Below are positions 1 to 20,391 of a stretch of DNA of 20,421 bases, piece after piece. A program made the translations under genes and the position numbers. The notes below the pieces were generated by a model that was not told the origin of the DNA, did no database searches, and saw only the letters and a list, made by a program, of their open reading frames with translations. Each line of letters begins with the position of its first letter. Position 1 is the first letter of the stretch. This DNA comes from a virus. The stretch spans positions 1 to 20,421 of IMG/VR virus record IMGVR_UViG_3300021131_000066; one strand, given 5' to 3'.

Positions 1-434
1 TACTGTTTTCCATCGTCTGGATATGGCGGACGAACAACCCAAGAATTTGTTGTGCCTTGCCAGAAATAATTGCCATCTGTTGGTCTTGGCGTTGGGGGCA
101 CATAAGCACAGGTAGCCTCATCAAACGTCCATGCAGTGAAATTATCACGATTTGGCAAAGACTCCCATCTTGCTCGAGCATTCTGTTGAACTTCAGCTTT
201 CTCTGCATCTGTCATGTCACGCAAAGCCCAAACGTCAGTCCATACTCCATCAATTTTTTGATAAATTGGTTCTTCTGAATTGAGCGCTTGATAAATTGTA
301 GGAATTGGGCGTTCTACACGAACAAAGGGCTCCCACTCTGATGGGATAGAGCCAAAAGCCTGAAGTAAGTTGTCTTCAAAAGCAGGATGATCAATAGTGT
401 TTTCGTTACCGTCTGTTTTAATATAAAGATTCAT
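1..434 (-). CDS. Partial tail-fibre-associated protein, function unknown
   Basis: The frame opens at 434 behind GGAG six bases upstream and stays open to the window edge: 144 complete codons with no stop. It begins MNLYIKTDGNENTIDHPAFE and contains WEPFVRVERP, a W-rich middle (KIDGVWTDVWALRDMTDAEKA) and FTAWTFDEATCAYVPPTPRP. Near the edge it shows two copies of a short unit: PTDGNYFWQGTTNSWV, then PPYPDDGKQ followed by TA, probably a Tyr codon. I recall similar proteins at the end of fibre operons in aquatic phages, but I do not know a proven function. Its place 14 bases after an adhesin gene would suit a fibre-assembly chaperone or an accessory tip protein; that is inference. The 3' end is missing. 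Confidence 0.75.
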   Translation of the reverse strand, partial: MNLYIKTDGNENTIDHPAFEDNLLQAFGSIPSEWEPFVRVERPIPTIYQALNSEEPIYQKIDGVWTDVWALRDMTDAEKAEVQQNARARWESLPNRDNFTAWTFDEATCAYVPPTPRPTDGNYFWQGTTNSWVVRPPYPDDGKQ

Positions 435-448
435 TTTCTACTCCAAAA

Positions 449-1618
449 TTAAGGCGATCCAACACAGGTTGATGGGAATGTGCGCGTGTTGCCGGGCCAG
501 ACGACACGGACTGCTCCAGAACTTCCTGCTCCACCATATGACGCACAGTTATTACCTACACCACCGCCGCCGCCGCCATACGAACCACCATTTGCTCCCG
601 CAGAATACGGAGAAACTACTTTAGAACCATTAGATCCTCCACTACCACCACCACCAATAGCAGAACAAACATTGGAGTTTGTTCCACCACTGCCACTAGA
701 ACCTTGGCCAAACAATCCTACTCCACCGCCGCCAGAACCTCCTGAAGGCCCACTAGGAGCAGAACTTGTACCGCCACCGCCGCCACCACCTGATCCAGAA
801 AAGCCGTTGCCTCCATACCAAACATAACCCGCCCCGCCTGAGCCAGAATAACCTCCTGCACCTCCGCCACCTCCGCCACCATAACTATTACCGCAACTGG
901 CCGAACCTCCGTTTCCTCCATTGCCACCGCCAATTCCTGTATATGTACCACCTACTCCAAAACAACCTCCATATCTACCTCCAGAAGCACTGCCACCTTT
1001 TGCTACTGCCGTTGATACAAAATATGAGCACCCGCCGCTTCCTCCACGACAGCGTAATCTACCACCTCCTCCGCCACCCCCAACTACTACCGTATATGAA
1101 TTACCGGGAGTAACAGAGTAACTGTTTGTGTAACCTAATCCACCTCCGCCACCGCCTGATCCAGAATAACAACAGCAACAATGAATTTTACCTCCACCTC
1201 CACCGCCACCGCCAACTGCAACTACAGAAACTGATGTCACTCCTGTAGGTGCAACCCAACTATAGGTTCCTGCTGTCGTATAGGATTGAGAGCTTGGAGC
1301 CACAGAAGTAGTAATGCTATTACTTGATCCACTATAGGCACCATATCCAATTGAATTTTGCGCTCTTACTGTAAATGTATAAGTAGTCGAAGCAGTTAAA
1401 CCAGTAACTGTAATTGGACTACTTGCTCCTGTTGCAGTGATAGAACCGGGACTTGACAATGCTTGGTAACCAGTAATGCTCAATCCACCTGTATTAGTGG
1501 GAGCAGTAAAAGCTACAGTGGCCGTGGTCGCACCAGTAGCCGTAGCTGTTCCAATCGTAGGAGCGCCAGGTACGGAGCTATAAGTCCCACCAGTAAAAGC
1601 ATTAAGAATGCCACTCAT
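449..1618 (-). CDS. Glycine-rich tail-fibre adhesin with FN3 domain
   Basis: A 389-residue probable receptor-binding protein. Residues about 16-105 read as a fibronectin type III domain (VPGAPTIGTA... YTFTVRAQNSIGYG). Residues about 110-135 carry SSQSYTTAGTYSWVAPTGV, a short beta segment seen before glycine-rich phage adhesin regions. Residues about 135-368 are dominated by Gly with Ser, Tyr and Asn, and include four consecutive cysteines at 147-150. The protein ends GAVRVVWPGNTRTFPSTCVGSP. Glycine-rich tips of this kind form polyglycine-II sandwiches in the phage S16 gp38 adhesin; that fold here is inference. The ATG overlaps the stop of the preceding fibre gene as ATGA, implying translational coupling. 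It is a paralogue of the gene at 5461-6306, which lacks the FN3 domain. Confidence 0.85.
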   Translation of the reverse strand: MSGILNAFTGGTYSSVPGAPTIGTATATGATTATVAFTAPTNTGGLSITGYQALSSPGSITATGASSPITVTGLTASTTYTFTVRAQNSIGYGAYSGSSNSITTSVAPSSQSYTTAGTYSWVAPTGVTSVSVVAVGGGGGGGGKIHCCCCYSGSGGGGGGLGYTNSYSVTPGNSYTVVVGGGGGGGRLRCRGGSGGCSYFVSTAVAKGGSASGGRYGGCFGVGGTYTGIGGGNGGNGGSASCGNSYGGGGGGGAGGYSGSGGAGYVWYGGNGFSGSGGGGGGGTSSAPSGPSGGSGGGGVGLFGQGSSGSGGTNSNVCSAIGGGGSGGSNGSKVVSPYSAGANGGSYGGGGGGVGNNCASYGGAGSSGAVRVVWPGNTRTFPSTCVGSP

Positions 1619-2211
1619 GTCACATTAGTCCCTGTTAATAGCCATTGAGTTGTAGCAATCTTAACGCAGTTTGCTACGCCATATTGAGCCAAAGACCTCG
1701 AGCCTGTACCGCCGCCTTGCGCCCAAGTTAATGTGTCCGAAGTGATAGCAATAGTCACCACTTGTGATGTCATGTTGATAAACTGGAGAACCGTTCCAAT
1801 AGGATACGCAACAGAAGAGTTGGCTGCAATCGTAAATGTGCGGGCATTAGCGTCTGAGGCTGGGTGGAAGATGCACTTACCAGCATCGGCCAGGACTGTT
1901 GTATATGCAGTGCTTTGGCTGTTTTGCGGGATGCTCAAGAACCCCACGGAAGTTGTTCCATCTGCGGTCGTGTTGGACAAGTTGCCACTTGCAGGCGTTC
2001 CAAGAATAGGCGCTACAAAGGTTTGCTGTCCTGACCATGTGGCCGCCACGTTAGTTGCTGGCATGGATGTCCAAGCGCTTCCAACATATTGGTCAACTAG
2101 ACCTGTTGTTGAGTTATAGCCAATCTCACCGTTTGATGGTGAGGCAGGACGAGAGCCTGTTGTCCACGTTGGGAGGAAGGCGCCGTTTGTACCATCGAGT
2201 ATCATTGCCAT
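1615..2211 (-). CDS. Tail-fibre protein, second cassette copy
   Basis: A 198-residue Ser/Thr/Gly-rich fibre-type protein. The N-terminus (MAMILDGTNGAFLPTWTTGSRPASPSNGEIGYNST) is the kind of segment in which a fibre names the surface it decorates; GEIGYNSTTGLVDQYVGSAW is frequent in phage fibres. From about residue 75 (LGTPASGNLSNTTADGT) to the end it is clearly homologous to the C-terminal half of the protein at 6303-6983: SDANARTFTIAANSSVAYP, FINMTSQVVTIAIT and GSRSLAQYG recur. The two N-termini are unrelated. AAGGA stands ahead of the ATG, and the 3' end overlaps the adhesin start by four bases. Probably the shaft or adaptor to which the adjoining adhesin attaches; this pairing is inferred from the two copies of the same gene order. 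Confidence 0.8.
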   Translation of the reverse strand: MAMILDGTNGAFLPTWTTGSRPASPSNGEIGYNSTTGLVDQYVGSAWTSMPATNVAATWSGQQTFVAPILGTPASGNLSNTTADGTTSVGFLSIPQNSQSTAYTTVLADAGKCIFHPASDANARTFTIAANSSVAYPIGTVLQFINMTSQVVTIAITSDTLTWAQGGGTGSRSLAQYGVANCVKIATTQWLLTGTNVT

Positions 2212-2223
2212 GTTAATTCCTTT

Positions 2224-3027
2224 TTACCAAGACCAAATAAATACTGCGCCATCACCGCCACGACCACCTGTTCCACCAGTAGAAGCTCCATACCCTCCGC
2301 CACCACCACCAGAACCTATGCCGCCAATACCTCCATTGCCAGCGATTCCGCCGCCTCCTACAGTTCCACCGCCGCCTCCAGCTCCACCAGTACTTAAAAA
2401 TAAAGGTTGAGTTAAAAAATAACCATTTCCCCCGGTACCTCCTGGCCCACCTGAAGCGCCACCATTAACAATTGGGTATCCATAATTTGTAGCTACATTT
2501 GATCCCGCATTAAGAGCTGCGCTCGCTCCGCCAGCACCTCCACTTAAAAATGTAGTCGTAGAAGCTGTAATTGCAGTTCCCACCGCCGCACCAGCTTGAC
2601 CAGCTATTGAATTAAATATTCCAGCAGCACCGAAATAATTGTTTGCAAATGCAGTACCAGCAGTTGAACCTGACCCTGCATTTGCTGTTAAAAGTGTATA
2701 ACCAGCACTCGCAGTTGGCCCTTGCCAAATTACAGAAGTTGCACCTCCCGCCCCAGCGCTCGGCAATCCACCTGCGCCAATAACAATTCTTAATTGGTCA
2801 GGAATAAATATTGCTGGTCCAATCCATTTCGTGACTGCTCCAGAGCCACCGCCAGCACCACCACTTGAGCCGCCTACACCTGTTGTGCCGCCGCCGCCTG
2901 CCCCAATTAAAAGCATACGCACCATAGATGCGCCACGGGGTTTGATCCAGTCACGAGTAGTGCCACCACCATAAAACTCTTGGTAATTGGCAGTTTGTGG
3001 GTTGGCAAAATTAAATACGTCTATCAT
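2224..3027 (-). CDS. Glycine-rich fibre/adhesin protein, tandem paralogue 3
   Basis: 267 residues, the most glycine-rich of three adjacent paralogues. A short N-terminal part (YQEFYGGGTTRDWIKPRGASMVRMLLIGAGGGG) is followed by GGGSGAVTKW, IPDQLRIVIGAGG, YTLLTANAGSGST, NNYFG, NSIAGQAG, TTFLSGGAGG, NYGYPIV, FLTQPLFLS and a final poly-Gly tract ending GDGAVFIWSW. The same landmarks occur in the same order in the genes at 3032-3712 and 3714-4433. The likely role is receptor recognition or fibre-tip formation outside the virion; this rests on the glycine-rich design and the position in the fibre array. The Shine-Dalgarno match is weak (GGTGA), so translation may depend on coupling to the gene five bases upstream. 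Confidence 0.8.
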   Translation of the reverse strand: MIDVFNFANPQTANYQEFYGGGTTRDWIKPRGASMVRMLLIGAGGGGTTGVGGSSGGAGGGSGAVTKWIGPAIFIPDQLRIVIGAGGLPSAGAGGATSVIWQGPTASAGYTLLTANAGSGSTAGTAFANNYFGAAGIFNSIAGQAGAAVGTAITASTTTFLSGGAGGASAALNAGSNVATNYGYPIVNGGASGGPGGTGGNGYFLTQPLFLSTGGAGGGGGTVGGGGIAGNGGIGGIGSGGGGGGYGASTGGTGGRGGDGAVFIWSW

Positions 3028-3031
3028 ATTT

Positions 3032-3712
3032 TCACCATGTAATGATTACTACGAGGCCGTTGCCACCTGCGCCACCAAAGTTTAAGCCAAAAGCCCCTCC
3101 GCAACCTATTCCCGCTTTTACATTGTCAAAATTTCCAGAGCCCCCCATTCCAACGATTATTGGTTGCATTTGAAAAAATCCATCAGTAGGTGATGTAATT
3201 CCTATGTAACCATAATTTGAAGTTGGAGAACCTTGTCCACCGCCAGCTAAAAAAGTAGTTGATGATGGATTTACCGAAGCATTCGATCCCGTTTGTCCTG
3301 CAATACTTTGATAAAACCCCATACAAGAAAAGTAATTTGAAGTAGATGCTGCGCCACCCGTTGATCCGCCACCATTAGCAGTCAACAAATTGTAGCTTCC
3401 ATTTACACTATAGTTAACAAGCGTGTTAGTTCCAGCTACAAGAATTGCTTGACTTACACCAACGCCACCTTTGCCAACTTGTATTTGCAACTCATCAGGA
3501 ATTAAAAAAGCAGGAACCATACAATTTGTAACTGCTCCAGAACCGCCGCCATAATTCGCTGCATCTCCACTTGCACCAGCACCAATTAAAGTAAACCAAA
3601 CAAATGATGCGCCTTGTGGTTTAACCCATGTTTGCGTGCCTTTTGTTTCTCCAGCATTAAATATCTGAATATTTGCGCCTTGAGGGGTTGGATATTTTAT
3701 AGGGTATGACAT
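3032..3712 (-). CDS. Glycine-rich fibre/adhesin protein, tandem paralogue 2
   Basis: 226 residues, the middle member of the three-gene paralogue set and the least glycine-rich. Landmarks in order: GTQTWVKPQGASFVWFTLIGAG, GGGSGAVTNC, FLIPDELQIQVGKGG, YNLLTANGGGSTGG, SNYFSCMGFYQSIAGQTG, STTFLAGGGQG, SNYGY, DGFFQMQPIIVG, GIGCGGAFG, GGNGLVVIITW. Three cysteines (in GAVTNCM, YFSCMG and GIGCGG) sit at points where the neighbours have other residues. The start lies one base after the upstream stop with no strong ribosome binding site, which suggests translational coupling. Probably a receptor-binding or fibre-tip component, inferred from composition and context. Confidence 0.8.
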   Translation of the reverse strand: MSYPIKYPTPQGANIQIFNAGETKGTQTWVKPQGASFVWFTLIGAGASGDAANYGGGSGAVTNCMVPAFLIPDELQIQVGKGGVGVSQAILVAGTNTLVNYSVNGSYNLLTANGGGSTGGAASTSNYFSCMGFYQSIAGQTGSNASVNPSSTTFLAGGGQGSPTSNYGYIGITSPTDGFFQMQPIIVGMGGSGNFDNVKAGIGCGGAFGLNFGGAGGNGLVVIITW

Positions 3713-3713
3713 A

Positions 3714-4433
3714 TTACCAACTCGCTATTAAAATCATACCAGCGCCTCCGTTACCACCAGTTGCTCCGCCATATGCACCACCAGAACCAATACCACCAAT
3801 TGTATTGTCTGCCGCACTATTCGTACCATTACTCCCAGTGCTAACAATAATTGGTTGTAATTGAAAAAACCCATTATTAACACCTGTAACGCTATAGCCG
3901 TAATTAGCAGTAGCAGCTGCTCCTGCGCTTCCAGAACTTAAAAATGTAGTTGCTGATGGTGTTTGAGTGCCGCTTGATATTCCAGCTTGACCAGCAACAG
4001 ATTGAAAAAACCCACTATTTGCAAATTGATTTGCTGTCATTGCAGTACCGCCAACCCCAGTACTGCCAGCGCCAGCAGTTAATAATATTGCTAATGATGC
4101 TGATGAACCACGATAATAAACATAACTATCAACCTGAGCATGACCAGAAACTCCAAAAAATGATGGCTGAATTATTAAATTATTAGGTACATTCTGTGCC
4201 GCACCATACCAAACAGTTACTGCCCCAGAACCACCTGACCCGGTACCACCACCAGTAGAACCATCGCCAGGGCCACCGCTTCCAATTAACATCATGTAAA
4301 CATGGCTAACGCCTACAGGTTTTATCCAAGAATAGGTTTGAGTTACACCTAATAGACTGCTGCCAGCCCCATAAAAAATCTGCACATCAGCATTGCTGTT
4401 GCGAAATTGGTTTTGGTTTTGGCGTACAAACAT
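3714..4433 (-). CDS. Glycine-rich fibre/adhesin protein, tandem paralogue 1
   Basis: 239 residues, first of the three-gene set in transcription order. The N-terminus differs from its sisters (MFVRQNQNQFRNSNADVQIFYGAGS). The shared framework then begins: YSWIKPVGVSHVYMMLIGSGG, GSGGSGAVTVWYG, VPNNLIIQ, LLTAGAGST, FFQSVAGQAG, ATTFLSSGSAG, NYGYSV, NGFFQLQPIIVS, GIGSGGAYGG, GGAGMILIASW. There is no recognisable Shine-Dalgarno in the two-base gap after the 67-residue gene, so coupling is likely. The three genes look like the product of two rounds of tandem duplication followed by divergence in the loops between the conserved landmarks, a pattern expected of host-range proteins. Confidence 0.8.
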   Translation of the reverse strand: MFVRQNQNQFRNSNADVQIFYGAGSSLLGVTQTYSWIKPVGVSHVYMMLIGSGGPGDGSTGGGTGSGGSGAVTVWYGAAQNVPNNLIIQPSFFGVSGHAQVDSYVYYRGSSASLAILLTAGAGSTGVGGTAMTANQFANSGFFQSVAGQAGISSGTQTPSATTFLSSGSAGAAATANYGYSVTGVNNGFFQLQPIIVSTGSNGTNSAADNTIGGIGSGGAYGGATGGNGGAGMILIASW

Positions 4434-4435
4434 GA

Positions 4436-4639
4436 TTAAGGCGTGTTGGTAGATGCGTTATACCAAGATGGTGCAGCAACATCCATACTTGTACAAGTAT
4501 ATTCCAATGGGTTATCTTGATTAACCACTGTACCTGTTTCTGTATAAATGTTTTGGCAAACACCATCCAACATTTTCATGTATCCCGCCCCTGTAGTGGG
4601 AGCGATAAACTCAATACTCCACCAGTTGTATGTAGGCAT
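4436..4639 (-). CDS. Small hypothetical protein in fibre array
   Basis: 67 residues, starting MPTYNWWSIEFIAPTTGAGY. I do not recognise a family. It is aromatic-rich (WW at 6-7, a further W, several Y), near neutral, and has two cysteines (VCQNIY and YTCTSMD). No signal peptide or membrane segment is visible. AGGAG lies nine bases before the ATG, and the gene starts one base after the stop of the 145-residue gene, so it is very likely translated with the operon. A small tail-tip or fibre-accessory component is possible, but only position supports that. Confidence 0.65.
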   Translation of the reverse strand: MPTYNWWSIEFIAPTTGAGYMKMLDGVCQNIYTETGTVVNQDNPLEYTCTSMDVAAPSWYNASTNTP

Positions 4640-4640
4640 A

Positions 4641-5078
4641 TCAATAATCTCCTGCGACAGTTACGACTGAATAACCTGTACCAGCAGAACCAGTAGAAGT
4701 ACCAAAAGTAACATAAAGCAAATAACTTGCTGGCAATGCAAAGTTCAAAGGCAATTCAAACACGCTTGATGCAGCAGTCTGAGATACTGTCACCGCAGGT
4801 AATGTAATCTCATCATAAAGCCATGTTACTGTTGCGCTAGTGGATGTGCTTGATGAAATAAACACACGACAAACAGTAGCGGCAGGAGAACCTACAGGGC
4901 GAAAACGAATCTTTTGAAGATAAGAGCCATTAGCACCAGCAGTAAATGCTTTGTACAACGTGCCTGATCCGTCTTGTGCGGTGTTAGCCGTTGGGCCAAC
5001 TACTAGACCAGAATTAAGTGCTGCAACGCTAGTAACGTCACCTGCTATTGAATAAATTGGGGATGTGTTTGCTGCCAT
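4641..5078 (-). CDS. Conserved phage virion-associated protein, fibre array
   Basis: 145 residues, beginning MAANTSPIYSIAGDV. The landmarks TANTAQDGSGTLYKAFTAG, YLQKIRFRPVGSPAATVCRVFI, WLYDEITLPAVTVSQTAA, LPLNFALPASYLLYVTFGT and the terminal VTVAGDY match a family I recall from many aquatic phage genomes, usually among tail-fibre genes. Alternating hydrophobic and polar residues indicate an all-beta fold. The exact function is not known to me. AAGGAG precedes the start with good spacing. A virion surface component, such as a fibre domain or a fibre cap, is the most likely role; this is inference from neighbours. Confidence 0.75.
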   Translation of the reverse strand: MAANTSPIYSIAGDVTSVAALNSGLVVGPTANTAQDGSGTLYKAFTAGANGSYLQKIRFRPVGSPAATVCRVFISSSTSTSATVTWLYDEITLPAVTVSQTAASSVFELPLNFALPASYLLYVTFGTSTGSAGTGYSVVTVAGDY

Positions 5079-5087
5079 GAAAACTCC

Positions 5088-5444
5088 TTATGGGAAAATA
5101 CAATTAATTGCGATTGCTCTGACTAAACCTATTGTAGGGCCTGTAACTGCCGCCGCCGCCCATATTGGAGCACCCGAGCCTTGAGATGTCAAGACGTAGC
5201 CTGTTGTTCCAAAAGAGGTAAATGCATATGCTGTTCCTGTTCCATATACAACTCCGCCGGACGTTGGTGTTGCTGTTGAGTTTGTGCCGCCAGAAGTAAT
5301 AGGAAGAGCGTTGGCTAAAGTGACCACTTGACTGGAGCTAATCGTGACCGCCGTAGTGCCCGCTGTTTGTAGAGCAAGAGAGCCAGAGGTGTCACTAGTG
5401 ACAACCACTCCGGCTGATGTTGATGCGTTAATTGATGCTGTCAT
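5088..5444 (-). CDS. Short tail-fibre protein
   Basis: 118 residues. The N-terminal half (MTASINASTSAGVVVTSDTSG, SLALQTAGTTAVTISSSQVVTLANALPITSGGT) is a repeat type common in long phage tail fibres, where pieces like LALQTAGTTAVTI build shaft segments. The middle (TSGGVVYGTGTAYAFTSFGTTGYVLTSQGSGAPIWAA) has the same pattern as the 6303-6983 protein (VPYSTGTGFGYSAVGTSGYLLASGG). The chain then ends in a hydrophobic tail, GLVRAIAINCIFP. It is far shorter than full-length fibres, so it may be a free-standing shaft module or a subunit that co-assembles with others. The start is supported by AAGGAGT-type spacing upstream of the ATG (AAGGAAACAAA). Confidence 0.7.
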   Translation of the reverse strand: MTASINASTSAGVVVTSDTSGSLALQTAGTTAVTISSSQVVTLANALPITSGGTNSTATPTSGGVVYGTGTAYAFTSFGTTGYVLTSQGSGAPIWAAAAVTGPTIGLVRAIAINCIFP

Positions 5445-5460
5445 TTTGTTTCCTTAAATA

Positions 5461-6306
5461 TTAGGGTGAGCCAACACAGGTTGATGGGAATTTGCGAGTG
5501 TTACCGGGCCAGACAATACGGACAGCACCGCCAGTGCCATTGCCGGGCGAAGCATTGCCAATATAACTACCGCCACCACCTCCTCCACCATAATTTCCAC
5601 CATTGCTACCTGCGTTTCCAGTAACAGAAGCTCCACTTGATCCTCCGCTACCACCTTTGCCATTTTGAGTTCCACCAGTTCCACCGGCTCCATTAGATCC
5701 TTGTCCAAATAAACCAACGCCCCCGCCGCCGCCGCCACCAAAATTTGGGCCAAAATTATTACTTGAACCACCGCCACCACCACCACCACTACCGGCGCAA
5801 GCCGTGCAACCAAAAGCCTTGGCATTTCCTCCATTACCTGCGTATCCTGCGGCACCACCACCACCACCGCCACCAGAGTTTACGAATAAACCTCCATTAC
5901 CACCTGTAAATCCACCACCACAAGCCGTAAAGTTTGTTCCTATTCCACCGGGTACTACTCTACCTCCTGTAGCCACCATAACGGCCGTAGGAGAACAAAA
6001 GTAACTTCTTGTCAATATTGGTGTACTATTAGTAGCGCCAACTTGTACGCTGTAACTATTTCCCGGCGTGACGGTAAAATTATTTATATATGCTAAACCA
6101 CCACCACCACTACCCGCTCCACCAATACAAGAACCACAACATCCCTGTTGTCCAGCATTAGAACCACCAATTGCTACTACGGAAACCGAAGTAACTCCTG
6201 TAGGGGCAACCCAAGAATATGTTCCCGCAGTCGTATAGGATTGAGAACTAGGCGCAGGGCCAAAACTCCTCTGGTTCTGAAACATTGCAACAGTAGCGCC
6301 ACTCAT
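5461..6306 (-). CDS. Glycine-rich tail-fibre adhesin, first cassette copy
   Basis: 281 residues from the ATG at 6306, which overlaps the preceding stop as ATGA. A start nine codons earlier is open but would lie inside the upstream gene. After MSGATVAMFQNQRS comes SSQSYTTAGTYSWVAPTGV and a beta strand, then about 200 residues dominated by glycine. Cysteines occur in pairs or clusters (GCCGSCIGG, FGCTACAGS). The end is GGAVRIVWPGNTRKFPSTCVGSP. Both ends match the adhesin at 449-1618 at protein and DNA level, while the glycine-rich interior differs. There is no FN3 domain. A receptor-binding tip with polyglycine-II packing is the likely structure, by analogy with phage S16 gp38. It probably works with the fibre protein encoded just upstream. 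Confidence 0.85.
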   Translation of the reverse strand: MSGATVAMFQNQRSFGPAPSSQSYTTAGTYSWVAPTGVTSVSVVAIGGSNAGQQGCCGSCIGGAGSGGGGLAYINNFTVTPGNSYSVQVGATNSTPILTRSYFCSPTAVMVATGGRVVPGGIGTNFTACGGGFTGGNGGLFVNSGGGGGGGAAGYAGNGGNAKAFGCTACAGSGGGGGGGSSNNFGPNFGGGGGGGVGLFGQGSNGAGGTGGTQNGKGGSGGSSGASVTGNAGSNGGNYGGGGGGGSYIGNASPGNGTGGAVRIVWPGNTRKFPSTCVGSP

Positions 6307-6983
6307 GTCAATCCGCTCCCTGAAATTAGCCAAGTGGTAGTAGTCATTTTTACAGCAGTTGCAGAGCCGTACTGAGCCAGTGATCGTGAGCCAGTCGTGC
6401 CTGCGCTAGACAAATACATTGTATCGGTGGTGATTGCAATCGTCACCACCTGAGACGTCATGTTGATGAACGTCAATGTTGTACCAACAGGATAAGCTAC
6501 ACTGCTATTGGCTGGAATTGTGAAAGTCCTAGCGTTCGCATCTGTAGATGGGTGGAAAATGATTTTTCCTGAGTCAGACAAAACTGCTGTATATGCAGCA
6601 GACTGGCTGTTAATAGGAAGAGTCAAATACCCAACAGCGTTTGTTCCATCGGCAGTTGTATTCGATAGATTGCCACTTGTGGGCGTGCCAAGTAGGGGCG
6701 TTACTAATGTAGGGCTTGTTGCAAGAACGGCGCTACCACTTCCTGTTGTTGCCACCCATGTTGGCGTCGATGATCCGCCAGATGCCAAAAGATACCCGCT
6801 TGTACCAACGGCGCTATATCCAAAACCCGTACCTGTTGAATAAGGAACCGTACCAGCTGTACCGGCAGTGGCGGTGAATAACGTCCCTGTTGTTGACGGC
6901 AGAGTAATAGTAACCGTCACCGCATCTGTTGGGGATAATGTTGTTGCGCCGCTTGTTGCGCCATTGAGTACGACTTGTCCCAT
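6303..6983 (-). CDS. Tail-fibre protein, first cassette copy
   Basis: 226 residues. The N-terminal half is a shaft-like repeat region (MGQVVLNGATSGATTLSPTD, VTVTITLPSTTGTLFTATAG, VPYSTGTGFGYSAVGTSGYLLASGG). From LLGTPTSGNLSNTTADGT onward it is homologous to the protein at 1615-2211, sharing HPSTDANARTFTIPANSS, FINMTSQVVTIAIT and TGSRSLAQYG. The C-terminal domain of about 120 residues is therefore a module carried by two different N-termini. AAGGA precedes the ATG, and the stop overlaps the adhesin start by four bases. The role is inferred to be fibre shaft or adhesin carrier. The composition is poor in charged residues, as expected of a beta-rich fibre. Confidence 0.8.
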   Translation of the reverse strand: MGQVVLNGATSGATTLSPTDAVTVTITLPSTTGTLFTATAGTAGTVPYSTGTGFGYSAVGTSGYLLASGGSSTPTWVATTGSGSAVLATSPTLVTPLLGTPTSGNLSNTTADGTNAVGYLTLPINSQSAAYTAVLSDSGKIIFHPSTDANARTFTIPANSSVAYPVGTTLTFINMTSQVVTIAITTDTMYLSSAGTTGSRSLAQYGSATAVKMTTTTWLISGSGLT

Positions 6984-7809: not shown

Positions 7810-8709
7810 TTATTGTCCTGACGGTATCACGGTCCAGTTGGGGGATTCAGGGTCATTGATAATGGTCCAGCCCGGAGTTTGCGTATTGCCTATATTTTGC
7901 CATGAAGCAGTCTCGCTGTCATCAACAGCAAACCAGCCAATCACGGTGTTGGAGTCTGCGGCCACCAGGTTCTCAATGATGCTGTAAATCGCACCGTATT
8001 GAATAGATTCCTGGTCAGCAAGTGTCGTAGCCTCTGAAATGCTTAGAGTCAAAATAAGATTGACGGAGCTCGAGTCTGCCGATGTAACGCCCTCAGTAAT
8101 CGTGAAGAACGAGATAAACCCGCCAATATACGAGTCAGCAGAAACCACTGCCTCTGCAATACTCTGCAAAAACGTTGATATCTGAGCGCTAGAATCCGCC
8201 ACCGCAAGATTCTCTACGATCCCAAAGAAGAACGTATCGATCTCTGAGTCGGTATTGTTGGATGTAAAGAACTCTGTTAAAGACTGTAAAAAAGCTGATT
8301 GCTGGGTGCTAGAGTCTGCTAAACCTGCATTTTCCACCAATGAAGAGCTAAATTGTGCCGATAAAACGGGCGTATCTGCCAGACCTGAATTCTCTGTATT
8401 ACTAAACGTAAACTGCTGAGAAATAGAGTTAACGTCACCAACAGTGGTTCCATCGGCGTTTACAAAGTAAAACTGCGATGCCTGGGTGCTTGAGTCAGCA
8501 CTATTTACATTCTCGGATATGCTATTAGAGAAAGTGCTTAACTCAGAGTTGGTGTCGCTGGAGGTCAGCGCCTCCGTAATACTCTGCAAAAAAGTGCTAA
8601 GTTGCGTGCTTGAATCTGCCAAGCCAGAGTCTTCAGTAATGGAAAAAGCATACTGATTACTGCCCGTTGATGCAAACGGTGACTGGGCAAAGGTGCTTAA
8701 ACCAAACAT
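7810..8709 (-). CDS. Fibre-like protein of twelve 20-residue repeats
   Basis: 299 residues. After a 23-residue N-terminus (MFGLSTFAQSPFASTGSNQY...), residues 24-263 divide without gaps into twelve 20-residue units of pattern (I/L)xExxxxADSSxQxSxFxxS. Examples are ITEALTSSDTNSELSTFSNS and LVENAGLADSSTQQSAFLQS. The tail (264-299) has a different, Trp-based repeat: SWQNIGNTQTPGW, WTIINDPESPNW, WTVIPSGQ; such W..I...QTP.W units occur near the ends of other phage proteins. The overall charge is strongly acidic (many D and E, almost no K or R). The regular period suggests a solenoid or an elongated beta shaft on the virion. The start overlaps the preceding stop as TAATG. Similar ADS repeats occur in aquatic phage genomes as I recall; the function is unproven. 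Confidence 0.75.
   Translation of the reverse strand: MFGLSTFAQSPFASTGSNQYAFSITEDSGLADSSTQLSTFLQSITEALTSSDTNSELSTFSNSISENVNSADSSTQASQFYFVNADGTTVGDVNSISQQFTFSNTENSGLADTPVLSAQFSSSLVENAGLADSSTQQSAFLQSLTEFFTSNNTDSEIDTFFFGIVENLAVADSSAQISTFLQSIAEAVVSADSYIGGFISFFTITEGVTSADSSSVNLILTLSISEATTLADQESIQYGAIYSIIENLVAADSNTVIGWFAVDDSETASWQNIGNTQTPGWTIINDPESPNWTVIPSGQ
7921..8640 (-). repeat. Twelve tandem 60-base coding repeats (20 residues each)
   Basis: This is the part of the 7810-8709 gene coding for twelve consecutive 20-residue units. The most conserved positions are E3, A8-D9-S10, Q13, S15 and F17, counting from the first Ile or Leu. The fourth unit (NADGTTVGDVNSISQQFTFS) is the most diverged yet keeps the 20-residue length. 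DNA identity between units is only partial; segments such as actctgcaaaaa and gagtctgc recur. The repeat is therefore old enough to have drifted while the period was held by selection. Confidence 0.8.
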
Positions 8710-13388: not shown

Positions 13389-13639
13389 TGCGCAGCTCTC
13401 ATGTTATCAATTAAATTTGGATAATGACGTCCCGCCTTTTTGGCCGCTTTCTTTGCAGCAGCCTTTTTGGCAGGGGTCAACTTGTTGGGCTTACCAAGAC
13501 TTTTAGGGCGAGGCTTATCCCAAACCTCCCCGCCCTTCTTGTACATAGAGACATCATTCGGGTCATCTTTTCTCTTGATGACCTTCCTGCCCGGCATTTT
13601 TGACGGGTTAATGTCTCCCATGCCACGACTTGCCATCAT
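13385..13639 (-). CDS. Small basic phage protein with Lys/Ala-rich helix
   Basis: 84 residues from the ATG at 13639, which overlaps the upstream stop as ATGA; an in-frame ATG at 13660 would lie inside the upstream gene. The chain is MMASRGMGDINPSKMPGRK, KRKDDPNDVSMYKKGGEVWDK, then LTPAKKAAAKKAAKKAG and RHYPNLIDNMRAAQ. The end (TPA.KAAAKA.AKAAGR.YPNLIDNMRAA) is a segment I recall from small proteins of many aquatic phages. The Lys/Ala stretch resembles nucleic-acid-binding tails. YKKGG belongs to the KGG pieces repeated across this block. The function is unknown; an internal virion or DNA-contacting protein is possible. Confidence 0.7.
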   Translation of the reverse strand: MMASRGMGDINPSKMPGRKVIKRKDDPNDVSMYKKGGEVWDKPRPKSLGKPNKLTPAKKAAAKKAAKKAGRHYPNLIDNMRAAQ

Positions 13640-13851
13640 TTGTACATCCCGCCTTTGCATGCAACGATAGTACCTTTGGTGTGGCCTTTTTCACAGCATC
13701 CATCTGCACGCTCGCTTGCACGATGCGCAGAACCACCTTTACTCATTCCACCAGGACGTTTTGCCGCCAACAAAGGATTGACTGGCATGCGACCTGCCAT
13801 AGGTGGCCGGCGCATTTGTCCAGGAGCCATCATCATTGAATTCATAGGCAT
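13636..13851 (-). CDS. Small Met/Pro/Gly-rich protein with KGHTKG motif
   Basis: 71 residues: a Met- and Pro-rich N-terminus (MPMNSMMMAPGQMRRPPMAGRMPVNP), KRPGGMSKGGSAHRASER, and then ADGCCEKGHTKG at 49-60, ending TIVACKGGMYK. The DG.C.KGHTKG segment recurs in the genes at 14828-15112 and 15114-15401. Three cysteines (52, 53, 65) around the motif could bind a metal. AAGGAG lies six bases before the start. The protein looks largely disordered and basic. No function is known to me; recurrence of the motif suggests a common docking role in the virion or during assembly. Confidence 0.7.
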   Translation of the reverse strand: MPMNSMMMAPGQMRRPPMAGRMPVNPLLAAKRPGGMSKGGSAHRASERADGCCEKGHTKGTIVACKGGMYK

Positions 13852-13861
13852 AACAGTCTCC

Positions 13862-14071
13862 TTATTTGGATACTTGATGTTTGTGCAAATGTTCGGCTAC
13901 TTCGTGGTGCTTGTGATGACCAGCAGCATGCTCACCATAAATGTGATGATGATGCTTGTGACCATTGACTTCATGTTCTTTCATGTGGTGAACATGGTGT
14001 TTAGTCTCATGATGGTGCTCATGACCAGCAGGATGAACGTGCTCGTGATGTTCTGGGTGATGATGTTTCAT
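13862..14071 (-). CDS. Extremely histidine-rich small protein
   Basis: 69 residues, 29 of them histidine (42 %). It starts MKHHHPEHHEHVHPAGHEHH and continues with runs such as HKHHHH and GHHKHHEV. Glu and Lys are the next most common residues; there is no Cys or Trp. AAGGA stands before the ATG, and the gene fits between neighbours with ten-base gaps, so it is very likely translated. Proteins of this composition bind Zn, Ni, Cu or Co ions in bacteria (for example, His-rich tails of nickel chaperones), and that is the likeliest property here, but no family is recognised. At low pH it would be strongly positive. The next gene upstream also has His clusters. Confidence 0.7.
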   Translation of the reverse strand: MKHHHPEHHEHVHPAGHEHHHETKHHVHHMKEHEVNGHKHHHHIYGEHAAGHHKHHEVAEHLHKHQVSK

Positions 14072-14827: not shown

Positions 14828-15112
14828 TTATCTCATCGATCCTTTGGTGTGACCACGCTTTGCAATTCCATCACGTTTCTTAACATGCGTTTTATGGTGT
14901 GCAATTTTACCGCCACGTTTTTTACCCATGCTTTTGCTGGCCTCATTGTAGGCCTCATTGGCTTTGGCTTGCTCCAAACGCTCATCACGTTCAGCCCTTA
15001 ACTGTCGCTCGGTTTCTGGCGTCATATAGTTGGGACTATTGCGTTCGGCCATTTGCTCGGCAGTTGGCCCGCCTTGTTTTCCTCTTCCAGCTCCAGCACC
15101 TTGAGTAGCCAT
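14828..15112 (-). CDS. Small basic protein ending in KRGHTKG motif
   Basis: 94 residues from the ATG at 15112, one base after the upstream stop and nine bases behind AGGA. An in-frame ATG at 15151 would start inside the upstream gene. The chain is MATQGAGAGRGKQGGPTAEQ, a long charged helix (TPETERQLRAERDERLEQAKANEAYNEASKSMG), then KKRGGKIAHHKTHVKKRDG and IAKRGHTKGSMR at the end. The final segment matches the C-termini of the adjacent 95-residue protein and, in part, the 71-residue protein. The helix could form a coiled coil. The RGG/His/Lys region suggests nucleic acid or phosphate binding. The function is unknown. Confidence 0.7.
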   Translation of the reverse strand: MATQGAGAGRGKQGGPTAEQMAERNSPNYMTPETERQLRAERDERLEQAKANEAYNEASKSMGKKRGGKIAHHKTHVKKRDGIAKRGHTKGSMR

Positions 15113-15113
15113 A

Positions 15114-15401
15114 TTACACCATCCTACCTTTTGTATGTCCTCTAATAGCACAACCGTCAGCGCATTTCCAAGCCCGTAGACTTTTGTTGATCCGACTATT
15201 TGGATCGTTGGCAGTCTTGGAAGACGTCAACTTTTCTTTCATCCCCGACATTCTTGCGCAAAAGCTTTTCTTCCTTGATCCGCCCTCGGGTTGGGGAGGC
15301 TTTAAATGCATCCCCTCCTTCGCGGCTGACGCTCTTCCTTTGGCGTTTAGACCGCCATTCGGATTCTTCCCTTCTTTGCGTTGCCATGCGGGGGTGGCCA
15401 T
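15114..15401 (-). CDS. Small basic conserved phage protein (DUF6321-like)
   Basis: 95 residues: MATPAWQRKEGKNPNGGLNAKGR, PPQPEGGSRKKSFCARMSGMKEKLTSSKTANDPNSRINKSLRAW, ending KCADGCAIRGHTKGRMV. The N-terminal 'PAWQRKEGKNP.GGLN.KGR' signature is one I recall from a widespread small phage protein family (DUF6321 as I remember it). 'SF.AR..GMK......K......SRI..SLR.W' is also typical. The C-terminal CADGCAIRGHTKG is shared with neighbouring small genes. The gene starts one base after the 849-residue gene's stop. It is highly basic and has four Cys. The biological role is unknown; virion association is plausible from its place between head and adaptor genes. Confidence 0.75.
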   Translation of the reverse strand: MATPAWQRKEGKNPNGGLNAKGRASAAKEGMHLKPPQPEGGSRKKSFCARMSGMKEKLTSSKTANDPNSRINKSLRAWKCADGCAIRGHTKGRMV

Positions 15402-15402
15402 A

Positions 15403-17952
15403 TTAAGCCATCGCTTCCTGGCAGACCACGTTTACTTGCAACGTCACACCGCCACTGTTTGCACAAGTCACGGCAACCGTCAGAATATCCGCTATATTGC
15501 CTTTGATGTTGGTCAAGACAGGAAAGAAGTTTGACAAATCAAGCTGTTGCAATCCATTGGGAGGCGTAGAGAATGCATACACAACCTCTCCACCAGACAA
15601 TGACGTGGAGGTTAAATCTTGCTCGGCAAATGAGTTATAAGAACCTAGAGTGTTCAAAGGAACAAAGTTTGCCTGAGACAAAGACACCTGATTGGTTGGT
15701 GTGGATGCAATCAACTCAACCAAACATGTTTGTGAAGAGTTAAGTAGCAACGTGTTTGGCAATAATTGACCGCGATCAATCAGACCAATCTGATAGCTAT
15801 TGCCAGATGCAGGACCATTGGCCAAAGGCAAGCCAGTCACAATATCACCGAATGTCAAAACGCTGGTTGTGTTTCCGGTAACACGGCCTGTATAAGGACT
15901 CACAGCAGAAGCGCCAGATGTATAGTTGCCAGGATTTACATTGCCCCAGTTAACCGTAATCGTTGTGGTTGGGTTTGATACTGGGATGCTTACTGAGTAA
16001 ATACCATTCATTGCAGCAGGAGTTGATCCGCTAATAATGATCACATCACCTTGCTTCAGTCCATGTGCTGAACTGAATGTAATGGTAGATGTGTAATTTG
16101 TCAGACCAGCAATTGTAGAACTAGCGGGATTGCTAATTGCACTGATTGAAGGCAAGCTGGCTTGATAATAAACAAACTTGCCAACCCACTGATTCACGCC
16201 CCAATACGTTGCCGTTGGCGTAGAGGTCAATGTTGCACCATTTACCAATTGGATTGGCAAAATCATGGTTGTCGTTGTTGGCACTTGTTGAATCAACCAA
16301 GTTTGAGCGGCGTATGTGGTGGTGGCTGTCAAGGTTCCTGTACCAGTAGTCTGGCTGGAACTCACTTGATATGTGCCCAATCCGCCTGGTGCATATGATG
16401 TCACAGTGCCTGAAACCTGAGCAGTAAATGCTTGGTTTACAGTGATTGTGGCACCATTAACAGCAGTGATAAACGTGCTTGCAGGAATGCCTGTTCCAGC
16501 AATCAATTGGCCTACCGCAAACGATGTGCCTGCGGCCAACACAACAACGCTTGAACCAGCTGCACCGCCGCTTGAATAAGCCTGAGAGCCAACAGCAGAG
16601 CTTGTTGCAGTTAATTGCTTAACAATGGTGGGTGAACCTGTAACGCCTGTACCCGACAAAACCTGACCGGGCTGGAGCGCTCCAGTAGCCACAGCTGTGG
16701 TCACGGTCAAAGTTGTTGTGGAGAAAGCGTAATTTCCCGTCGCAATTGTTGCCACTTCAGTAAAAGAACTTAGCGTAACATATTGGGATGGGTTGTTGGC
16801 TTGAGCAGTATTTGTTACAGCATATCCATGTGCAGATGCAAAAGTGACCAATGCTTGTCCGCCATTAGGTTGACCAACAACAGAAGAAATTGCAGGAGTT
16901 GCAGCGCTGATTGTCAATGTCGTAGCAGAACCGCCTGTAGCGGCAGCATTGGTTTGATCAAAAATATCAGAACCAATAGCTCTCATGCGGAAAGACATCG
17001 CGGGATAGCGAGTAATTGCAGTAGAAGGAGCTCTGGTTTGTGTCTTAGCATCATTGCCGTATGAATATGTAAAACCACGCTGAGAGTCAATACGGCCTTC
17101 AATCAATACTGATACGCCATAGTGCGTCATCAAAGATGCAGCACTGCTTCCGTTGTCTCTTTGCTCATAGCGCACAGGCAAATTACCTGTACGGCTCCAA
17201 GGTTTAACTTGTGCAATACCGTTAACAATTCCGTTTCCAGTACCAACTTGGTGTAAAACCCAGGGCTCACCGTTAAGAACAACGCCCCAACGCAAAGCAC
17301 CAGCTCCATACCATGCGTATTCCATCCAAATCATTTGGACTTTGGTCCAATCAAGTGCATTGATAATGTTTTTATTACCATTCCACTGATCGCAAGGAAT
17401 AACTTGATCTATAACGCCAGCCGAACCAGAGTCAGAACGAATAACAGCATACATGGCGCCAGAATTTCCTGGGTATGCAGTACCTTGCTGTAAAAAGAAA
17501 ATACCGTTGGAGTCATCAAAAATACCAACGCGTTGTGTTTGTCCGCTTACAGATGTACCAAAGTTAACGTTGGAAGCCATGTACATGGTCTTACCAGGTT
17601 GGTATCTGTGATAAGGACGTGACTGACGAATCGTAATATCACCGGGTGTATTGCCGCCGCCAATGTTCATTGACACGCCACCAAGCCCGGGGTTTTGAAC
17701 AATGTATGCTTGACCAGATACATTACTAATAATCTGTTCCCAACGCAAAGGCTGAACGCCATATTCAAAGTCGGCGTCGTAAATATTTTGTGATTGGCTT
17801 ACTTTTAATTTACCAACAACATCGCGTAAGCGTTGTGGAGGAATAAACTCAGCAGCACCATCAATACCTTGCCAAGCGGTACTTGGGGTTTGCGTCCCCA
17901 TGCTTGCCGTCTGGTTGTTAGGCGAGAAAAAATTAAAAAGATTCAAACCCAT
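15403..17952 (-). CDS. Large modular virion structural protein
   Basis: 849 residues. The core N-terminal part (about 30-330) holds RLRDVVGKLKVSQSQNIYDADFEYG, RVGIFDDSNGIFF (141-153), AVIRSDSGSAG, QWNGNKNIINALDWTKVQMIWMEYAWYGAG, RWGVVLNGEPWVLHQVG and NLPVRYEQRDNG. I recall this set from virion proteins of aquatic phages; it has the look of a lectin-like beta domain. Residues about 345-685 are a string of inserted beta modules: two TGTG(V/I) modules (about 412-450 and 467-522) and two SAHG modules (371-376 and 627-655, FSSAHGLKQGDVIIISG). The core resumes to the end (YAFSTPPNGLQQLDLSNFFPVLTNIKG, LTVAVTC). Its place after the capsid genes suggests a head fibre, decoration or tail-surface protein; the exact site is unknown. 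AAGGAG precedes the ATG. Confidence 0.75.
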   Translation of the reverse strand: MGLNLFNFFSPNNQTASMGTQTPSTAWQGIDGAAEFIPPQRLRDVVGKLKVSQSQNIYDADFEYGVQPLRWEQIISNVSGQAYIVQNPGLGGVSMNIGGGNTPGDITIRQSRPYHRYQPGKTMYMASNVNFGTSVSGQTQRVGIFDDSNGIFFLQQGTAYPGNSGAMYAVIRSDSGSAGVIDQVIPCDQWNGNKNIINALDWTKVQMIWMEYAWYGAGALRWGVVLNGEPWVLHQVGTGNGIVNGIAQVKPWSRTGNLPVRYEQRDNGSSAASLMTHYGVSVLIEGRIDSQRGFTYSYGNDAKTQTRAPSTAITRYPAMSFRMRAIGSDIFDQTNAAATGGSATTLTISAATPAISSVVGQPNGGQALVTFASAHGYAVTNTAQANNPSQYVTLSSFTEVATIATGNYAFSTTTLTVTTAVATGALQPGQVLSGTGVTGSPTIVKQLTATSSAVGSQAYSSGGAAGSSVVVLAAGTSFAVGQLIAGTGIPASTFITAVNGATITVNQAFTAQVSGTVTSYAPGGLGTYQVSSSQTTGTGTLTATTTYAAQTWLIQQVPTTTTMILPIQLVNGATLTSTPTATYWGVNQWVGKFVYYQASLPSISAISNPASSTIAGLTNYTSTITFSSAHGLKQGDVIIISGSTPAAMNGIYSVSIPVSNPTTTITVNWGNVNPGNYTSGASAVSPYTGRVTGNTTSVLTFGDIVTGLPLANGPASGNSYQIGLIDRGQLLPNTLLLNSSQTCLVELIASTPTNQVSLSQANFVPLNTLGSYNSFAEQDLTSTSLSGGEVVYAFSTPPNGLQQLDLSNFFPVLTNIKGNIADILTVAVTCANSGGVTLQVNVVCQEAMA

Positions 17953-18808: not shown

Positions 18809-18836
18809 AATATACACTATATACGCACGGTGTCAA
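18809..18836 (-). promoter_or_regulatory. Sigma70-type promoter for the 239-residue virion gene
   Basis: On the minus strand, TTGACA (18836-18831) is followed after 16 bases by TATATT (18814-18809). The -35 box is perfect and the -10 box has five of six consensus bases. The -35 box lies within the codons for V-D-T near the end of the HNH gene, and the -10 box just beyond its stop. Transcription would start near 18802, giving a leader of about 85 bases. Use by host RNA polymerase would make this a strong promoter for the capsid-associated protein. Confidence 0.7.
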
Positions 18837-19395
18837 CAAGTTTATTGGACTTTTTTAAATTCTCTTCTTGAGTGATTACACGAAGATTCCAAGGCACATG
18901 TAGGCCGCACACAGACTCTGAAATGAGCGGAATAATATGGTCAACAACATATCTTTCGCCGGCTATTTTGGTAAGCTCTTGAGCCTTTAAATACAGGTTT
19001 CGCATGGCCAGCTTTTGTTCTGGCGTGATCCACTTGGGGGTGGCGTTGCGGTGTCTGCGCTTGCGAACGCTAGTGAGGGCTTTGTAGAGTTCAGGGTTTT
19101 CTTTTTTATGTTTATTTCTATGTGTTCTTTTTTCTTCTATTGGCCTTGCATTAGACCGCGCTTTTACGGTTTCTTTATTGCGTTCGTAATAACGTCGCCC
19201 AGCTGCTTTTGCCGCCTCTGATTTCGGCTTCTCCTTGCGCTTTTGATTATCAATTACCCAATCTTCTTTCATGCATTCTACGCATGATCCTTTGGTCTTT
19301 CGTAAAGCAATATGCCCACGAATGCATGCTATGCCAGTAAAGTAATGCGTTGCGCCTATACGTTTTGCTTCAGCTCTATTATCTGGATACTCCAT
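18817..19395 (-). CDS. HNH endonuclease, probable free-standing homing type
   Basis: 192 residues. The N-terminus has a zinc-binding pattern typical of phage HNH proteins (THYFTGIACIRGHIALRKTKGSCVEC: C24, H28, C38, C41). A long Lys/Arg-rich stretch for DNA contact (about 50-125) is followed by WITPEQKLAMRNLYLKAQELT. The HNH fold is at 149-184: YVVDHIIPL (D152-H153), H166-V-P-W-N170-L and N179-x4-N184. Such enzymes nick or cut double-stranded DNA. It stands alone between a terminator and a promoter, interrupting the capsid region, and its wording is richer in A and K than its neighbours; both suit a mobile homing endonuclease. AGGAG is six bases before the ATG. There is no sign of an intron, since no flanking gene is split. 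Confidence 0.85.
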   Translation of the reverse strand: MEYPDNRAEAKRIGATHYFTGIACIRGHIALRKTKGSCVECMKEDWVIDNQKRKEKPKSEAAKAAGRRYYERNKETVKARSNARPIEEKRTHRNKHKKENPELYKALTSVRKRRHRNATPKWITPEQKLAMRNLYLKAQELTKIAGERYVVDHIIPLISESVCGLHVPWNLRVITQEENLKKSNKLVDTVRI

Positions 19396-19423: not shown

Positions 19424-19429
19424 ATTATA
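19424..19429 (-). promoter_or_regulatory. Possible -10 box ahead of the HNH gene
   Basis: A perfect TATAAT on the minus strand lies about 30 bases before the HNH start, just behind the terminator U-tract. No good -35 box is placed 16-18 bases upstream; the nearest match is within the terminator stem. It could give weak expression of the endonuclease independent of capsid transcription, or be chance in an A/T-rich gap. Confidence 0.3.
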
Positions 19430-19488: not shown

Positions 19489-20391
19489 TTAGTATGATCC
19501 ATAAATACCTAGTGGGTCGGACCAACCAAAAGAGTAACGTTCTCTAGATTTGTAGCGAACGTTCCCTGTATCGAAGTCACCATCCATTGAATTTTGCAAC
19601 GGTGTACGCTCAAAATGCTTGAGGCCGTTAGGCACATCAGTAGTCAAGAACCATGCATTGGTAGCGGTCAAGAAGTGGTTAACTGTGTAACCTTCTGGAA
19701 CGGAACCGTTGTTCTTGATAGCGTTGATGTCGTTGTTGTTTGTACCAACGCGCAATTCTGTGTCGAGCAAACGTGTTGCAACGAACATTAGTGCTGGTGG
19801 AACAATCAACTTCTTGGGGCGTGCGGCGATCAAAAGACCACGCTCGTCTGTCCAAGCGGCGATTTGAATGACGGCATTCTCAAGAGAAGTCTCGTTCAAG
19901 TCAGCGGCTGTCGAGGGAGTGTTGGCGTTTGTGCCACCGTTCACCAAGGGGTGAGCAGAGTTCAACAAAGATACACCGTCGCCACCAACGTATTGAGCGT
20001 TGTAAGCGTTGTTCAAAACTGCGGCAGCTTTGACTTGCTTGGTGTATGCCATAGCACGAGCCAAACCTTTGGTGTAGCGAGCAGACAAGCTGTCGTACAA
20101 GTTATCTTCAATCGCTTCTTCAGTGATTGAGAAACCCAAAGCAATGGTTTCGTGGTTATAGCGAGCTGTAAATGCCTCTTGCGCATTGTCGTAGCTGATG
20201 GCTGTGCCCTCGGCCTTGACTGGTGCGGCTGAGAAGCCTGACAGTTTTGTCTCTTCTTCAAAGCTACGCTCTGATTTCTCAGTTTCGTAGATCTCTTTGT
20301 GCTCTTCGCCGTAGCGGGCGTACTCTAGACCGAACAATGCGTTCAAACCAGGGAGCAACTCTTTAAGCAGTTGTGCGCGTGAAATAGCCAT
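19489..20391 (-). CDS. Major capsid protein (HK97-fold, Mu gpT-like)
   Basis: 300 residues. It begins MAISRAQLLKELLPGLNALFGLEYARYGEEH. Landmarks: FEEETKLSGFSAAPVKAEGTAISYD (about 44-68), ETIALGFSITEEAIEDNLYDSLSARYTKGLARAMAYTKQVKAAAVLNNAY (81-130), NSAHPLVNGG (144-153), DERGLLIAARPKKLIVPPALMFVATRLLDTE (182-212) and the end SRERYSFGWSDPLGIYGSY. The spine-helix region, the 'RP..LIVPP.L...A..LL' strand-helix and the C-terminal 'ERYSFGWSDPRG.YGS' are typical of Mu-gpT-like capsid subunits with the HK97 fold. The length suits this family. It would form the icosahedral shell. AAGGAG stands six bases or so before the ATG, and a terminator follows at once, fitting a very abundant product. I am confident of the role; the subfamily label is from memory. 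Confidence 0.9.
   Translation of the reverse strand: MAISRAQLLKELLPGLNALFGLEYARYGEEHKEIYETEKSERSFEEETKLSGFSAAPVKAEGTAISYDNAQEAFTARYNHETIALGFSITEEAIEDNLYDSLSARYTKGLARAMAYTKQVKAAAVLNNAYNAQYVGGDGVSLLNSAHPLVNGGTNANTPSTAADLNETSLENAVIQIAAWTDERGLLIAARPKKLIVPPALMFVATRLLDTELRVGTNNNDINAIKNNGSVPEGYTVNHFLTATNAWFLTTDVPNGLKHFERTPLQNSMDGDFDTGNVRYKSRERYSFGWSDPLGIYGSY

Follow-up and report, generated by a model that had tools for sequence, protein, structure and literature searches.

Paired fibre and adhesin genes of a freshwater phage as probable host-recognition tips replaced between constant segments

Background

The adhesin gp38 of the T-even phages T2, PP01 and S16, which is encoded by a separate gene behind the fibre gene, combines glycine motifs with hypervariable segments and is proposed to cap the fibre tip (PMC12892980, PMC6851490), and T-even adhesin alleles are swapped at conserved motifs (Tetart et al. 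1998, as cited in PMC7468147). The cyanophage Pam3 fibre gp24 (7ypx, 7yfw) carries a TNF-like domain and a glycine-rich distal domain, with a conserved stem and a hypervariable tip (PMC9608196). Near-identical uncultured phages differ in tail-fibre or receptor-binding genes, a difference ascribed to recombination (PMC7468147), and the genes of metaviromic islands include gp38-type adhesins (PMC3909814). Here we analyse an IMG/VR virus record, IMGVR_UViG_3300021131_000066, from a freshwater virus of bacteria; its 20,421 bases (the window) hold, on the minus strand, tailed-phage virion genes and a row of fibre-like open reading frames (ORFs), among them two cassettes, X and Y, in each of which a fibre gene is coupled to the gene of a glycine-rich adhesin (Table 1).

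As with T-even gp37 and gp38, a separate gene lies directly downstream of the fibre gene, both in the two copies and behind 68 of 71 distinct fibres that end in the same constant domain, the socket; and as in gp38, glycine-rich motifs alternate with hypervariable segments in an alignment of 29 adhesin bodies. The adhesins nevertheless find no gp38 match in Pfam or PDB sequence searches, their top fold match is Pam3 and not 6F45, and where S16 gp38 has a three-helix attachment domain with tryptophans (PMC6851490) they begin with a connector of about 15 residues. The core is predicted to be TNF-like, unlike the gp38 beta-helix, and, unlike in T-even phages, various tip folds occur on one connector and two pairs in one phage. 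Since sequence and attachment domain both differ from gp38, we do not file the cassettes as gp38; they are a variant of T-even gp37/gp38-type tip swapping. With Pam3 gp24 they may share the combination of a TNF-like and a glycine-rich domain, a predicted match at the level of fold, but there one trimeric fibre protein with a helical anchor carries these domains at its C-terminus, and here a separate protein behind the fibre would do so. The phrog_4474 and PF21722 entries, as listed, give no function and no connector. Compared with the variable genes or domains in the available parts of PMC3909814 and PMC7468147, the borders can here be placed at codons of the connector and the scaffold, and exchange crosses folds on one connector. 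What appears to be new is a fixed socket, a short connector common to different folds, and swap borders mapped to them, for which a partial literature search found no description. Mosaic tail fibres are a familiar observation, but it is rarely possible to see which rules allow a new phage to accept a foreign tip. Should the connector indeed dock on the socket, the one-step exchange of unrelated tips would be explained, and the connector would provide a signature by which receptor-binding proteins of uncultured phages could be recognised in sequence data.

Results and discussion

Replacement of tips in sister genomes

We consider it likely that the cassettes are two-gene host-recognition tips with constant segments as borders, that these tips are replaced by recombination between phages, and that two of them are carried at once. 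The contigs G039 and G040 are 99.92% identical across 13.4 kb, yet their first adhesin is wholly different: the left flank is near-identical over the 205 base pairs (bp) at hand, and on the right identity is unbroken from TTCCCATCAACTTGTGCAGG, in the C-terminal end (C-end) of the adhesin. In the contigs L026 and L382, with three tandem adhesins each, the middle adhesin is 97.5% identical throughout, while in the first and third the ends are retained and the bodies drop to about 50-60%.

The window itself has such a sister in a record of 60,480 bases (G041, also L281; the twin), which is identical to contigs of three other metagenomes. The two have a 100% identical head protein and are 98.97% identical over window positions 18820-6795 (about 12 kb). 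Some 60 codons of fibre X are shared, after which the window continues with its socket and adhesin X, and the twin with another C-terminal part and a weakly XkdW-like ORF of 97 amino acids (aa). Past the start of the 118-aa ORF, three glycine ORFs in the window stand against an S74-chaperone-like ORF and an HNH endonuclease in the twin. From the start of fibre Y onward homology returns at 88.8%; the adhesin bodies cannot be aligned, and the right end stands at 86%. The twin is therefore without copy X altogether, and its Y adhesin body is unrelated to that of the window.

When contigs that are at least 85% identical are paired, their alignments repeatedly break within adhesin ORFs and resume 56-85 bp before the stop codon. 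Unrelated bodies give an identity background of 49 ± 4% (maximum 60%), and the allelic bodies fall within it (window/twin 52%, G039/G040 49%, third copy of L026/L382 56%). Since bodies of sister phages stand at the level of unrelated ones, gradual change is disfavoured in these pairs, provided that their assemblies are not chimeric. Sister genomes thus display identity outside a sharply bounded, replaced tip, the pattern of natural tip exchange. Judged by their sequences, tips are replaced wholesale between sister phages, and the constant segments are the borders at which these tips differ. The differences nest at three levels: complete blocks of fibre plus adhesin; entire tips that follow the connector, even where their folds are unrelated; and glycine bodies between the N-terminal segment (N-segment) and the C-end.

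Family and fold of the conserved ends

The C-end GAVRIIWPGxTRxFPSTxxGxx and the N-segment SYTTAGTYSWVAPxGVTSVSVVA recur in tens of unrelated contigs, and in the alignment of the 29 bodies constant blocks (GGGGGGAGGYSGNGG, GVGIFGQGSNG and YGGGGGG) alternate with variable loops. In an AlphaFold2 model of adhesin X built with 29 relatives (pLDDT 77.9, pTM 0.79), beta-strands fall on the conserved ends, at residues 20-46 and 261-266, with a glycine lattice and loops between them; a Foldseek search with this model returned the cyanophage Pam3 fibre 7ypx as the best solved structure (E 1.4e-5, TM only 0.40). Both adhesins match phrog_4474 across more than 250 residues (E about 1e-42), and their Pfam matches are confined to Gly_rich_2 (PF21722) and fn3: adhesin Y exceeds both cut-offs (31.2 and 36.4 bits), and adhesin X lies below that of PF21722 (16.6 vs 24.3 bits). 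A tblastn search of phages with adhesin X gave no match, probably because its glycine-rich sequence was masked. According to the model, the conserved ends encode the beta-scaffold of a TNF-like/glycine-lattice domain throughout the family.

Most of the similarity of the ends arises because the protein family imposes them on all members, and since they are predicted to form the scaffold in every member, conserved ends alone are no evidence of exchange; the combination of conserved ends and a variable body would appear even without recombination. An earlier note on this DNA had read exchange from precisely this combination. Exchange stands on other grounds, namely the block replacement of bodies in natural variants (G039/G040, L026/L382, window/twin), and the argument from the ends does not.

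One could thus propose that there is no exchange, and that X and Y are members of a family whose fold constrains the ends and whose bodies diverge fast under diversifying selection. The scaffold strands conserved in all members would suit this proposal, as would the saturation of synonymous sites in the fibre C-domain between X and Y. We regard it as improbable, as it leaves unexplained why one body of G039/G040 is wholly different in 13.4 kb that are still 99.9% identical, why the second body of L026/L382 is at 97.5% when the first and third are near background, and why different tip folds sit on fibres up to 92% identical. The sister pairs already refute it for the most part; it would be revived if they were chimeric.

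Socket and connector

From the motif FH...R.FTI to the C-terminus the fibres span 84 residues, a length that is invariant among those listed of the 71 distinct fibres. The directly coupled next ORF behind 68 of these 71 starts at an offset of -4, -1 or +1, and all 68 open with [MV][SA]G followed by a short peptide (for example MSGALQAVFQNQRSFG, MSGIQQMLTGGTY and MSGILNAFVGGSYG); the connector is an MSG peptide of about 15 residues with no conserved tryptophan. In 40 of the 68 cases the query had been the fibre by itself, so these were not chosen for their connector. The tips behind the connector comprise 33 PST-end glycine lattices, 13 further glycine-rich proteins, 16 Lcl_C proteins and six others, laminin-G-like and FN3 proteins included. 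Fibre genes up to 92% identical bear a glycine tip in one phage and an Lcl_C tip in another, and in such pairs, which are not mutually independent, homology stops within or shortly past the connector, at nucleotides 19-59 of the tip gene. Glycine adhesins that are not behind a socket have mostly other N-termini, in the tandem order RYQAG, SGxW, YPGG.

These sequence relations suggest that the connector docks on the socket as a plug. A further-reaching proposal, to which we give even chances, is a connector standard: a fixed-length socket and a 15-residue plug through which many aquatic phages would share a community pool of tips (glycine lattice, C-type-lectin-like, laminin-G-like, FN3), swapped by annealing recombination at constant codons, with the other N-terminal tags (RYQAG, SGxW, YPGG) addressing further virion positions. 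Separately, we observed that the order of these tags has no counter-example in the contigs L069, L396, L026, L382, L010, L022, L029 and L392, and that the socket-coupled Lcl_C (C-type-lectin-like) tip at L085:7673-8326 and its 15 relatives have variable surface positions.

Comparison of the two copies

Direct comparison of X and Y bears out the architecture described in the earlier note. Two fibre and adhesin pairs overlap by ATGA (fibre stop and adhesin start at 6303-6306 and 1615-1618), and the fibres are alike at the C-terminus and not at the N-terminus, over about 134 residues at 70% identity, where the note gave about 120. Divergence along the aligned DNA is not uniform: identity is 68% in the fibre C-half, peaks at 83% in the adhesin N-segment, falls to about 55% in the body, and peaks again at 85% in the end (73 bp), where the 21-base match CCAACACAGGTTGATGGGAAT lies at 459-479 and 5471-5491, as had been noted; by our own estimate the chance of a 21-base repeat in 20 kb is about 5e-5. 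The glycine-rich bodies do differ between the copies, and are no closer than those of unrelated family members (about 55% at the nucleotide level). As a border of exchange the 21-base motif holds in part: the right junction of G039/G040 falls on it, but copy X has its swap borders within the fibre gene and at the ATG of the next gene.

At codons of identical residues, matches between X and Y are near the codon-usage expectation in the fibre C-half (37/93 vs 31.8) and the body (30/89 vs 28.2), and above it in the N-segment (15/29 vs 8.5) and the end (12/20 vs 6.5; z = 2.7 each). Family-wide, the ratio of observed to expected matches is 1.30 for the C-end and 1.22 for the N-segment, against 1.14 in a fibre motif used as control. 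We take this excess as a modest sign of a recent shared history of the ends and no proof of a dedicated site. A constraint on the 21-base motif at the level of DNA was also considered, TTC-CCA-TCA being favoured in 62 non-redundant C-ends relative to gene-wide usage, and was set aside.

The earlier note further suggested that recombination between X and Y at their conserved ends alternates the displayed tip within one genome. In line with this, the N-segments of X and Y are mutually nearest among 30, the nearest to the C-end of X among 69 is that of Y, and C-ends in the same contig share more codons (0.543, expected 0.318) than those in different contigs (0.421, expected 0.299; permutation p about 0.001), an excess that codon usage does not explain but to which related contigs and one 94% pair contribute. 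Among the relatives compared, however, there is no X/Y hybrid and no body common to X and Y, the twin is without X, and RVT_1, Resolvase and Phage_integrase are without a match in the 13 records searched (the twin and 12 others), so that neither an invertase nor an integrase nor a reverse transcriptase was found to drive a switch. Since each copy has its own fibre, both tips would be available at once. Switching between X and Y is accordingly dropped as very unlikely: X and Y are two tips borne together, not two states of a switch. An invertible fibre switch as in phiCh1 was rejected likewise, as both copies lie on the same strand and the 13 records are without Resolvase or Phage_integrase.

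Mechanism of exchange

In the mechanism that we propose, the fibre would end in a constant socket on which the plug of the coupled next gene docks, and the first and last beta-strands of the adhesin would hold the variable loops. Tips would be replaced by homologous recombination with co-infecting phages, with an ERF annealing recombinase and a nuclease acting on short, diverged homology, and new tips would be selected through changed receptor binding. The window is itself too short to reveal a recombinase gene; in the twin an ERF-family annealing recombinase adjoins a PD-(D/E)XK nuclease, and ERF is found in G004 and G037 too. Erf/Exo of phage D3 recombines DNA of 78% identity, and a minimum of 30 bp has been taken for the related Red-beta (PMC3945230); by analogy, tracts of 73-93 bp at 83-85% lie within this published range. 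The most economical explanation is that short constant tracts serve as sites of exchange with other phages.

Homing endonucleases beside the fibre genes might instead cut and co-convert the flanking tip genes. The HNH/AP2 ORF of the twin does sit in the block that replaces the three glycine ORFs of the window, directly before fibre Y, and the window has a different ORF (18817-19395), HNH-like by reading, that the twin has not; in the tip region of the window itself, however, no such gene occupies the swapped positions, and we think this explanation rather improbable. That a diversity-generating retroelement or an invertase generates the variation, as its concentration on one gene might suggest, is hardly credible, for the bodies differ in length and throughout, not at adenines. 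Lcl_C tips resemble C-type-lectin-like proteins that are mutated by diversity-generating retroelements. RVT_1 had no match in 19 further records, Lcl_C-bearing ones included, and no template-like repeat was found in them; a retroelement at the Lcl_C tips was therefore rejected.

Several points weigh against exchange between phages at constant segments. A search for body donors among 93 distinct adhesin ORFs found no body common to otherwise different contigs, so the evidence carries neither direction nor source, and as every contig was assembled from a metagenome, individual junctions could have arisen as assembly chimeras. The ends show a modest excess of matching codons (1.30 vs 1.14 in the control), and since CCA-TCA is favoured in the fibre motif too, we claim no dedicated recombination site. 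ERF occurs in just 3 of the 13 records, a set with many fragments; the AlphaFold2 model matches the PDB at fold level only; and we infer the docking of plug on socket from sequence.

Genome context

The cassette span 449-6983 also takes in ORFs that are part of neither cassette, namely those of 118, 145 and 67 aa and the three further glycine-lattice ORFs, of which just one (3032-3712) exceeds the PF21722 cut-off. Fibre X is 74% identical over its full length to the fibres of G034-G036. A 290-aa version of adhesin X with a TTG start was discarded as an artefact, the ATG at 6306 (within ATGA) fitting all relatives. Homologues of the gene at 3..434 adjoin the last adhesin in L255-L261 as a constant partner; a Pfam search with its product gave no match, and the product is perhaps a candidate assembly factor.

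Table 1 Features of the two cassettes and their surroundings in the window
Feature	Position	Strand	Basis or remark
Fibre X, 226 aa, variable N-part and C-terminal socket domain	6303..6983	-	ORF
Junction 1, 99% identity with twin stops inside fibre X	6795..6817	.	window/twin alignment
Socket domain of fibre X, C-terminal ~134 residues	6306..6707	-	common to Y and 69 other distinct fibres
Adhesin X, 281 aa, glycine-lattice tip protein	5461..6306	-	ATGA overlap with fibre X; phrog_4474 E 1.5e-42
Connector (putative plug) of adhesin X: MSGATVAMFQNQRSFG	6259..6306	-	same connector type in 68/68 socket-coupled ORFs
N-segment of adhesin X (SSQSYTTAGTYSWVAPTGVTSVSVVA), first scaffold strands	6163..6255	-	93 bp, 83% to Y; modelled strands 20-46
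C-end of adhesin X (GAVRIVWPGNTRKFPSTCVGSP)	5461..5529	-	holds 21-base match 5471-5491; last modelled scaffold strand 261-266
Junction 2, 108 bp at 97%, start of 118-aa ORF	5340..5447	-	right edge of X exchange, left edge of next
Three more glycine-lattice ORFs (267, 226, 239 aa)	2224..4433	-	not in twin
Fibre Y, 198 aa	1615..2211	-	ORF; block 1202-2210 88.8% to twin
Socket domain of fibre Y	1618..2019	-	70% aa identity to X socket
Adhesin Y, 389 aa, FN3 then glycine lattice	449..1618	-	ATGA overlap with fibre Y; phrog_4474 E 7.9e-42
Connector (putative plug) of adhesin Y: MSGILNAFTGGTYS	1577..1618	-	N-terminal comparison of socket-coupled ORFs
FN3 domain of adhesin Y, residues 19-99	1322..1564	-	PF00041 E 6e-9; none in X
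N-segment of adhesin Y	1208..1300	-	93 bp, 83% to X
Variable body of adhesin Y	527..1193	-	unalignable to twin; flanks 86-89%
C-end of adhesin Y	449..517	-	holds 21-base match 459-479
Gene right behind last adhesin	3..434	-	truncated at window edge; 159 aa in twin
Virion protein	15403-17952	-	phrog_1645
Major head protein	19489-20391	-	phrog_371

Assignment of a host through matching contigs was abandoned, because those contigs are binned in many unrelated metagenome-assembled genomes. Shortly after its tip locus the twin carries a 2OG-Fe(II) oxygenase gene (L281:17902-18591); the gene lists of metaviromic islands also include 2OG-Fe(II) oxygenases (PMC3909814). The HNH-like ORF of the window, for which Pfam returns no HNH match, lies between the head protein gene and a 239-aa ORF, and its absence from the twin is seen from window positions 19429 and 18820, which map to twin positions 8317 and 8332. 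Between structural and fibre genes stands a 299-aa ORF (7810-8709) with diverged internal repeats (ADSSTQ and TFLQSI motifs). Three small basic neighbour ORFs end in a GHTKG motif (13636-13851, KGHTKGTIV; 14828-15151, RGHTKGSMR; 15114-15401, RGHTKGRMV), and a 69-aa ORF at 13862-14071, about one third of it histidine, is 77% conserved in the relative L253.

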